A stretch of DNA of 64,000 bases. Source: Myxococcaceae bacterium (GTDB taxonomy: Bacteria; Myxococcota; Myxococcia; Myxococcales; Myxococcaceae). Position numbers and translations under genes: made by a program. The stretch is from the NCBI GenBank assembly GCA_017881265.1, contig JADGRA010000080.1:124001-188000 (forward strand). The letters run 5' to 3'. Each line of letters begins with the position of its first letter. Position 1 is the first letter of the stretch. This document shows positions 2,549-5,248 of this stretch, piece after piece. Under the pieces are notes generated by a model. It ran no database searches and had not been told where the DNA came from. It saw only the letters and a program-made list of their open reading frames with translations.

Positions 2549-3622
2549 ATGGGCGTCAGTGGTGGACGCATCAAGGCCTTCGACTGGCTCCGGGGACTGG
2601 CGGTCCTGGTAATGGTGGAGACGCACGCCCTGGTCTTTCTCAGGCCGGAGCTCCACCAGACGCGCGCCATGGCGCGCTTGAACTGGGTGAATGGCCTGGT
2701 GGCGCCCTCGTTCATCCTCGCCGCGGGGTTCTCGCTCGGCTTGCTTCAGGTACGGGCGGCCGCCGGGCCGGCCGGACGGTCCGCACGGTTCTGGCGGACG
2801 CTCCGCCGCATCGCCGAGGTGCTGGCGGTGGCCACCCTGGTGAACGTCGTCTGGTTCCCCATCACGGTCGAGCCGCGCTGGCTCACCCGCATCGACATTC
2901 TGCAATGCATTGGGCTGTCGCTCCTGCTCGCCCTGCCGCTCTTGGCCGCCCTGGCCGCACGGCCCCACCTTCTGGTTGGGGTCTCCCTCGGTGTGGCCGG
3001 CGCCATCTTCTTCCTCGCCCCATATGCGGAGCGCGTGACCGGTGGCGTCGCCTCGCAACTCCTCAAGCGCGGGGGCCCGTGGTCCACCGTGTTCCCCCTC
3101 GTGCCCTGGGCGGGCTACGTTTTCCTCGGCGCCGCCCTCGGCGCCCTTTTGGCCACCGGAAACACGTCACGGGTGCACCGGCTGCTGCTGGCGCTGGTCG
3201 GCACAGGCGTGCTGGTGGCCCTGCTGACGCCCGTCTGGCTCGCCATCTACCCGCCCCATGAGTTCTGGGTAACCGACCCCGCCAACTCGGCGCAGCGCTG
3301 GGCGGTGGTATCGGTGCTGCTCTTGGGGTTGCTGTGGCTCGAGAGGTGCCTTCCGGACGCGTGGCGGACCAGCGCCCCGGTGCGCTTCGTCGAGCTCTTC
3401 GGGACCTCGTCCCTCGCGGCGTACTTCTTCCACCTGATGCTGCTCTTCTACCAGGTGCGCGGCCGCTCCCTGGACGTCCTCTTCGGTAAACGCTGCGGGT
3501 GGTGGGGGGACGCCGGCCTCACCCTGTGCGTCATCGCGGGCACCGCGGTGCTGACCGCGTTGACGGACCGGGTGTACCGGGCGCTCGACCGCCGGACGCG
3601 CCCGCCCGCGCCCCGGGACTGA
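2549..3622 (+). CDS. DUF1624 / heparan-alpha-glucosaminide N-acetyltransferase-like membrane protein
   Basis: This 357-residue polytopic membrane protein has about ten hydrophobic segments. It opens with the sequence typical of DUF1624/DUF5009 acyltransferases: RIKAFDWLRGLAVLVMVETH carries the conserved Asp and the candidate catalytic His in the first membrane segment. The stretch RIDILQCIGLSLLLALPLL also fits the family. Relatives move acyl groups across or at the membrane, but the substrate here cannot be told. ATG 2549 is the first start in frame and sits 114 bp from the divergent gpmI start. The gene ends 23 bp from the convergent SelW-like gene. Confidence 0.8.
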   Translation: MGVSGGRIKAFDWLRGLAVLVMVETHALVFLRPELHQTRAMARLNWVNGLVAPSFILAAGFSLGLLQVRAAAGPAGRSARFWRTLRRIAEVLAVATLVNVVWFPITVEPRWLTRIDILQCIGLSLLLALPLLAALAARPHLLVGVSLGVAGAIFFLAPYAERVTGGVASQLLKRGGPWSTVFPLVPWAGYVFLGAALGALLATGNTSRVHRLLLALVGTGVLVALLTPVWLAIYPPHEFWVTDPANSAQRWAVVSVLLLGLLWLERCLPDAWRTSAPVRFVELFGTSSLAAYFFHLMLLFYQVRGRSLDVLFGKRCGWWGDAGLTLCVIAGTAVLTALTDRVYRALDRRTRPPAPRD

Positions 3623-3645: not shown

Positions 3646-3891
3646 CTAGTGCGCGACCGACTGCAGGCGGCCCAGCGCCTGGGCGACGGCCTCCACCACG
3701 TCACGTGGCGAGGGGAGGCTGCCGTGGCCCTTGGTCAGCACCCGAAGCCCATCGACTTCCACCTCGAAGCGGGCGGAGTGGCCCCGTACCAGAACGGCCT
3801 CAACGCCGAGCGCCTCGCGCAGCGCGTCCGCGGCTCGCGTCGCATGGGGAAGGTAGTTGCAGGTGACGCAGTAGAAGATGGTGACTGACAC
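3646..3891 (-). CDS. SelW-like (SelT/SelW/SelH, Rdx family) thioredoxin-fold protein, Cys form
   Basis: An 81-residue protein of the selenoprotein W-related family, with the redox motif FYCVTC (Cys8 and Cys11) after the first beta strand of a thioredoxin-like fold. These proteins are thought to act in thiol redox chemistry, but the bacterial substrate is unknown. It starts at GTG 3891-3889. It is a close paralogue of the TGA-containing gene just upstream (4023-4262) on the same strand. Shared segments include YLP-ATRAA, a VEA-LV-GHS core and a FEV strand followed by SP-VV-AV. The pair lies downstream of rlmH and may be co-transcribed with rsfS-rlmH. Confidence 0.88.
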   Translation of the reverse strand: MSVTIFYCVTCNYLPHATRAADALREALGVEAVLVRGHSARFEVEVDGLRVLTKGHGSLPSPRDVVEAVAQALGRLQSVAH

Positions 3892-4022: not shown

Positions 4023-4262
4023 TCAGCCCGGCGGAGCGCTTGAGCCAATCGCCCGGGAGACGGCGTCCACCACCTCGGCAGGGGAGGGGAAGCCCGACCG
4101 ACCTTTCGCGGCGACGACCTTGCCGGCCACAGCGACCTCGAAGATGCCGGAGTGTCCCTTCACCAGAGTCGCTTCGACGTCCAGTTCCTCCTTCAACGCG
4201 GCCGCCGCACGGGTGGCCTGGGGGAGGTAGCCTCAGGAGTTGCAGTAGGTAATGGTCACCAT
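4023..4262 (-). CDS. Selenoprotein W-like protein with in-frame TGA read as selenocysteine (CxxU)
   Basis: From ATG 4262-4260 the frame reads nine residues, meets TGA at 4235-4233, and then continues in the same frame to a TGA at 4025-4023, giving 79 residues if the first TGA is Sec. The local motif is TYCNS-U-GYLP: Cys7 and Sec10 form CxxU, as in animal SelW (YCxxUGY). It aligns without gaps to the CxxC of the neighbouring paralogue. Everything after the TGA is conserved with that paralogue (YLPQATRAAAAL, VKGHSGIFEV, GFPSPAEVVDAV), so the downstream part is under coding constraint. A hairpin 15-33 nt after the TGA fits a bacterial SECIS. Standard gene callers would miss or truncate this gene. 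No strong Shine-Dalgarno sequence is visible. It needs selABCD elsewhere in the genome. Confidence 0.85.
4200..4218 (-). promoter_or_regulatory. Bacterial SECIS-like hairpin in the SelW-like mRNA
   Basis: Counting from the nucleotide after the TGA, positions 15-33 can fold: GGCC-A-CC pairs with GG-C-GGCC (one A.C mismatch), closing the five-base loop CGUGC. The loop starts 22 nt after the TGA and has a G in its first two positions. Both agree with the known bacterial SECIS layout (apical loop about 16-37 nt after UGA). The element lies inside the coding sequence, as bacterial SECIS elements do. The fold was found by eye. Confidence 0.6.
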
Positions 4263-4349: not shown

Positions 4350-4811
4350 TCAGCGGTGGTAGGGCTCGCCCTTCAGCAGGGTGAAGCCCCGGTACAGCTG
4401 CTCCACCAGCACCAGCCGCGCCAGCCGGTGGGGAAGCGTCAGCGGGGAAAGCGAAAGCACCCGGGCGGCGGCGGCCCGTAGGCCGCTGTCCAGCCCGTCG
4501 TCGCCACCCACCACGAAGAGCAGGTCCTGGCTGCGGTTCTGGGCGTCGGCGAGCAGCCGCGCGAAGCCGGGTGTGTCCAGCCGCTCTCCGCGCTCGTCGA
4601 GCGCCAGCAGCGTTTCCCCAGGACGTCGGGCGGCCAAGAGCCGCTTGGCTTCCGCGGCGCGGGAAGCTTCCGCCGCACCCTTCCCGGAGGAGGCGGGAAG
4701 CTCGGTCAGCTCGAGCCGGGTGTAGTGCTTCAGCCGCTCGGCGTAGCCCTGCACCGCAGGCTCGAACCACCCCGACCGGTCGTGCCCCACCGACAGCACG
4801 CGAACTTTCAG
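4350..4811 (-). CDS. rlmH: 23S rRNA (pseudouridine1915-N3)-methyltransferase RlmH
   Basis: RlmH methylates pseudouridine 1915 in helix 69 of 23S rRNA, using SAM, on the assembled 70S ribosome. The C-terminal half shows the SPOUT knot signature: LLFVVGGDDGLDSG as the SAM-binding glycine loop, then LSLSPLTLPHRLARLVLVEQLYRG, split here by family convention into two helices. The end (GEPYHR) is the invariant RlmH terminus. Relatives begin MKVR, which here corresponds to CTG 4811-4809. That codon overlaps the rsfS TGA and has a perfect AAGGAG 8 nt upstream (4825-4820). The alternative GTG 4841 lacks a Shine-Dalgarno sequence and adds a non-conserved extension. A CTG start is therefore proposed, giving 153 residues. 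It is coupled to rsfS. Confidence 0.92.
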   Translation of the reverse strand: MKVRVLSVGHDRSGWFEPAVQGYAERLKHYTRLELTELPASSGKGAAEASRAAEAKRLLAARRPGETLLALDERGERLDTPGFARLLADAQNRSQDLLFVVGGDDGLDSGLRAAAARVLSLSPLTLPHRLARLVLVEQLYRGFTLLKGEPYHR

Positions 4812-5248
4812 GCCACCTTCTCCTTGGGCGCATCCGCCCACAGGCCGTCCAAGTCGTAGAAGGCACGCACCTCGGTGCTGAAGAGGTGCACTACCACCTC
4901 GCCGAAGTCCAGGAGGACCCAGTGCCCGGTCTCGAAGCCCTCGGCGCCGATGGTGCGGAAGCCCTCCTCGCGAAGCTTCTCGCGGAGGTGCTCGGCCATG
5001 GCGCTGACCTGGCGCTCCGACTCGCCCGAACCGAGGACGAACCAGTCGGCGTAGGAGGTCATGCCCCGCACGTCGAGCAGCACCACGTCCAGCGCCTTCC
5101 TGTCCACCATCAATTCCGCCGCCCGGCGGGCCAGCGCGCGAGCCCGCGGGTCATCGACGGGGGGGAGGGGAGAGGCGTCCGGCGCTGCCAAGCGACGCGC
5201 GGGGCGCTTGCGGGCAACGGCACTTCGAGGTCTTCGGGGCGTGGGCAA
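4808..5248 (-). CDS. rsfS: Ribosome silencing factor RsfS (Iojap family)
   Basis: RsfS binds ribosomal protein uL14 and blocks joining of the subunits when nutrients are scarce. The Iojap/DUF143 core starts near residue 34 (ARALARRAAELMVDRKALDV) and contains MTSYADWFVLGSGESERQV and a late GHWVLLDFGEVVVHLF, both family hallmarks. The first ~30 residues are a basic, Pro/Arg-rich extension; the start at TTG 5248-5246 is uncertain. The stop overlaps the proposed start of rlmH, the usual bacterial partner. It is divergent from a small TPR gene 39 bp away. Confidence 0.94.
   Translation of the reverse strand: MPTPRRPRSAVARKRPARRLAAPDASPLPPVDDPRARALARRAAELMVDRKALDVVLLDVRGMTSYADWFVLGSGESERQVSAMAEHLREKLREEGFRTIGAEGFETGHWVLLDFGEVVVHLFSTEVRAFYDLDGLWADAPKEKVA

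Follow-up and report, generated by a model that had tools for sequence, protein, structure and literature searches.

A SelW-like gene with a predicted selenocysteine codon and a tandem cysteine paralogue in a Myxococcaceae bacterium

A gene encoding a SelW-like protein of the Rdx family, with a predicted selenocysteine (Sec) at codon 10, was found on the minus strand of the window (the whole stretch of 64,000 nucleotides analyzed here), next to a tandem copy in which the Sec position has turned to cysteine. As the earlier note had claimed, the frame (4262 to 4023) runs for 79 codons from an ATG to a TGA stop and is open only if the in-frame TGA at 4235-4233 is read through; according to the alignment of homologues, this codon corresponds to the second residue of a CxxU redox centre. 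The frame, the Rdx profile match, the homologues and a structure model support the gene itself, and its internal TGA is almost certainly translated as Sec, to give a small redox protein belonging to a known family. We assign a probability of about 0.95 to the joint reading of a SelW-like selenoprotein gene with a redox product and a tandem copy converted to Cys.

The deduced product (MVTITYCNSUGYLPQATRAAAALKEELDVEATLVKGHSGIFEVAVAGKVVAAKGRSGFPSPAEVVDAVSRAIGSSAPPG) matched the Pfam Rdx model (PF10262) with 48.3 bits (E 1e-12; curated cut-off, 22.6 bits), placing it in the SelW-like/Rdx family, and the Cys paralogue also scored above the cut-off (34.6 bits). The best NCBIfam models for both genes were those of SelT/W/H proteins, with the epsilonproteobacterial SelW model (NF041051, SelTWH_Campy) as the top match, although scores of 65.7 and 52.6 bits fell below the curated cut-off of 88 required for an equivalog. 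The AlphaFold model of the product of the TGA gene, with Cys modelled for Sec, showed a beta-alpha-beta-beta-beta-alpha arrangement (pLDDT 85) in which C7 and residue 10 follow strand 1, the predicted C7xxU10 centre lying between strand E2-7 and helix H13-27. The top matches of this model in the PDB were all Rdx/SelW proteins, followed by thioredoxins. The best were bacterial Cys-type Rdx structures from other phyla (3dex, 2fa8, 2oka and 2obk; TM about 0.8), and in 3dex a Cys occupies the Sec position of the alignment. Animal SELENOW (2npb, mouse SelW) and MIEN1/C17orf37 (2ljk) share the fold and a centre of the YCxxU/YCxxC type, with about 27-29% identity and structural matches below those of the bacterial SelW-related proteins; no sign of a partner in common with the animal proteins, such as 14-3-3, was found.

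Homologues were widespread in the class, with an Rdx gene in 88 of 147 genomes and exactly one in-frame TGA in 87 of the 89 matches, including those from Corallococcus terminator, C. praedator and an Archangium MAG. When 44 distinct Sec-type homologues were aligned, the TGA fell at the same codon in every one and the frame remained open after it, which, together with the Rdx score, indicates that the TGA frame is not a product of chance. Cys forms were limited to two, namely the tandem neighbour in the window and a gene from genome G042 (locus L047), where none of selA, selB, selC and selD was found; apart from the window pair and G042, every Rdx match of the class was TGA-type and single-copy. 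Cys and TGA both occur at this column and nothing else does, and the Sec form is the usual one in the class and probably also the ancestral one, the Cys paralogue being a derived copy. The earlier note had presented bacterial SelW-like selenoproteins as described but rare: the rarity does not hold in this clade, while members of the family (PF10262/TIGR02174) have indeed been described from Desulfotalea, Geobacter, Symbiobacterium, Desulfotomaculum, Alkaliphilus and Sargasso Sea metagenomes (PMC1794560, PMC1088965, PMC9312934).

The tandem paralogue (3646-3891, minus strand), identified by its Rdx match, the tree and the hairpin comparison, starts with GTG and encodes 81 amino acids with a CVTC motif; its TGC codon at 3861-3859 is aligned with the TGA of the Sec-type gene, so the latter does sit at the second Cys of the neighbour's CxxC, as had been proposed. 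In a phylogeny based on 72 columns, the two window copies were sisters (bootstrap 100, SH-aLRT 74) inside a clade shared with the gene of G002 (99/87), with end branches of 0.95 for the Cys copy vs. 0.094 for the TGA copy. Both copies contain GHS and PSP residues that are missing in most relatives, and the closest sequence to the paralogue was the adjacent TGA copy (58% identity). Estimates of divergence between copies (dN about 0.34, dS about 1.08; NG86, with dS near saturation) suggest that the Cys copy is not evolving neutrally.

Upstream of the selW gene lie rlmH (SPOUT methyltransferase; 4350-4841) and rsfS (4808-5248), both on the minus strand, and the other side is flanked by a convergent gene for a membrane acyltransferase-like protein (HGSNAT_cat; 2549-3622, plus strand), all three supported by profile matches and by synteny with some relatives. 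The order TPR/rsfS/rlmH/selW/HGSNAT/iPGM was common to G006, G026 and L088 (Myxococcaceae MAG RPRB01000073.1; apparently the same place as in G006), and in these three a single TGA-type selW lies between rlmH and HGSNAT. Since relatives with the same gene order hold the TGA copy only, and the tree pairs the two window copies, the neighbour is best regarded as a younger, lineage-specific tandem duplicate that went from Sec to Cys, most likely through tandem duplication followed by a TGA to TGC change in one copy. The opposite history, in which the Cys gene came from an outside source or predates the TGA copy and gave rise to it, would agree with the long branch of the paralogue and with Cys to Sec as the usual direction in thiol-redox families (Zhang et al. 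2006, PMC1794560), but it is improbable in view of the TGA copies held at this place by the syntenic relatives, the residues common to both copies, and a class in which the only other Cys form belongs to a genome without Sec machinery. We consider it likely that duplication with Sec to Cys change left a retained tandem pair, one copy with Sec and its younger duplicate with Cys and without SECIS, that provides selenium-dependent and selenium-independent isoforms in a single Sec-decoding cell. For the SelW-like family, very few or no Cys homologues have been found in Sec-using organisms, and no Sec/Cys conversion was given (Zhang et al. 2006, Table 1, PMC1794560).

That the TGA could be a true stop, in a pseudogene or through a Cys codon misread in sequencing, with the Cys neighbour as the working copy, was also considered, as the neighbouring Rdx gene is intact and termination at the TGA would cut the product after 9 residues. 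This is very unlikely: the pseudogene and sequencing-error readings are contradicted by the conservation of the TGA codon among homologues, the genome has a complete Sec machinery, and the TGA copy, besides its short end branch, showed low dN/dS (dN 0.18 and dS 1.31 against G002; NG86, near saturation). A frameshift or another stop after this codon in close relatives, which the earlier note had named as the mark of a dead gene, was seen in none of the relatives aligned.

The genome from which the window comes (4.4 Mb in 81 contigs, 95.7% complete) contains the complete machinery for Sec decoding, for which the same note had suggested a search. The tRNA-Sec scored 67 bits and was identified by ARAGORN as tRNA-SeC(tca), with anticodon UCA, and selA, selB and selD were all found above cut-off, with cleanly readable products. 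Among 60 relatives, at least two of selA, selB and tRNA-Sec were present in 29 of the 30 genomes with the TGA gene (Fisher P 0.0012, a value that ignores relatedness). The exception, G024, has the TGA gene, yet selA, selB and tRNA-Sec were unmatched in its assembly, which is 87% complete and split into about 900 contigs.

A putative bacterial SECIS hairpin, GGCCACC-CGUGC-GGCGGCC (4200-4218, minus strand), was located directly 3' of the UGA, at +17 to +35 from its U, with six of seven pairs formed, one A.C mismatch and a G at the second base of the small apical loop. This agrees with the bacterial SECIS form, a short hairpin that lies close behind the UGA and has an invariant G in its loop (PMC1088965, PMC4607533). 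The hairpin was conserved across the family, as seven pairs closing a five-base loop, mostly CGUGC. At pair 20-32, which joins third codon positions, C-G was found in 25, U-G in 7 and U-A in 9 of 41 sequences, a covariation reached by none of 20000 shuffles; at pair 17-35, likewise between third positions, G-C was found in 31, A-U in 5, G-U in 2 and A.C in 3 (shuffle P 0.0014). These shuffle tests ignore kinship, and the sequences with changed pairs are spread over several distinct branches of the tree. Synonymous conservation was in excess along the stem (codons 5-11) when compared with the remainder of the gene (P 2.6e-4). The loop codon was CGT in 31 of 44 sequences, while only 5 of 76 Arg codons further along the same genes were CGT. 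The protein sequence does not explain this combination of covariation and codon constraint. The case for the hairpin rests on these two lines, since per-gene comparison of folding energies with synonymous shuffles is too weak on its own: the mean z was -1.1 over the 44 genes, and the window hairpin taken alone did not beat its shuffles (z -1.6, p 0.07). The A.C mismatch of the window copy was common to four relatives that have Thr at the same codon. Decoding of the UGA by near-cognate suppression or generic readthrough instead of Sec-tRNA is highly improbable, given that Cys alone alternates with TGA at this column, that the TGA gene co-occurs with selA, selB and selC, and that the UGA is followed by a hairpin with a conserved loop G.

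With the UGA aligned to Cys or Sec of homologues and SelA, SelB, SelD and tRNA-Sec present in the same genome, the identification as a SelW-like selenoprotein made in the earlier note is upheld. During translation, SelB carrying Sec-tRNA-Sec would bind the hairpin that closely follows the UGA, and the Sec inserted at codon 10 would form part of a C-x-x-U redox centre in a small thioredoxin-like protein. By family homology, the product would act in thiol/selenol redox reactions, most likely as an oxidoreductase of the cytosol or as an electron carrier with an antioxidant role, in line with proposals for SelW; the neighbouring genes, with ribosome-associated rsfS and rlmH upstream, gave no indication of a redox partner, and no sigma-70 promoter-like or terminator-like sites were found around either gene. 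In the paralogue, the ATRAA segment is encoded by other codons and the hairpin is down to three of seven pairs, a loss to be expected once Sec insertion is no longer needed. Following duplication and the change to TGC, this copy most likely lost the unneeded hairpin and diverged fast while remaining a CxxC Rdx protein, and it may serve as a selenium-independent backup.

The window gene resembles the described bacterial SelW-like selenoproteins in its Rdx domain, its CxxU centre, the hairpin 3' of the UGA and the presence of SelA, SelB, SelC and SelD in the genome, and differs from them in the clade-specific CGUGC/CGGGC loop of Myxococcaceae and in its tandem Cys duplicate. As bacterial SelW-like selenoproteins are already a described family, the novelty is modest, the distinctive part being the retained Sec/Cys pair. 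A literature search on myxobacterial selenoproteins and SelW found no relevant paper in the library searched; for Anaeromyxobacter, other selenoproteins have been listed, SelW not among them (PMC1794560). With this analysis, Myxococcota gain a clade-wide set of SelW-type selenoproteins, of the sort that standard gene calling, which stops at TGA, would miss, and epsilonproteobacterial SelW genes have likewise been missed in genome annotation (PMC4607533). It also provides a clear case of Sec to Cys change by duplication in which the Sec parent is kept and the SECIS of the Cys copy is decaying at synonymous sites. If true, the pair would be a natural experiment in which two isoforms of one redoxin are encoded next to each other, and it could serve to ask what Sec gains over Cys within one cell and one gene neighbourhood.

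Loops other than the clade-specific ones were also seen. In distant relatives from other families (L048, L059 and L063), the hairpin of the Sec-type Rdx gene had a GGUCU or AGUCU loop instead of CGUGC/CGGGC, so the SECIS loop has changed within the class. Behind its Cys codon, the Cys gene of G042 shows a stretch compatible with a hairpin of 7/7 pairs and a GGTCT loop, a possible SECIS relic that we do not claim, its energy being no better than that of synonymous shuffles (z +0.4).

The source genome most likely decodes Sec in further genes, judging from the sequences of a Sec-type SelD and two formate dehydrogenase frames. Two probable genes for alpha-type formate dehydrogenase selenoproteins (contig C50, locus L095; contig C38, locus L098) have U at the canonical site (NRTUHAPSVAGL and ARVUHGPTVASL) and a hairpin 3' of each; in the NRTUHAPSVAGL frame the loop is GGUCU, which is also the loop of E. 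coli fdhF. SelD itself has U at HCAGU (contig C49, locus L054, 1001-1933). Its gene contains a TGA in many relatives too and lacks it in other members of the family, across which SelD thus appears to alternate between Sec and a different residue.
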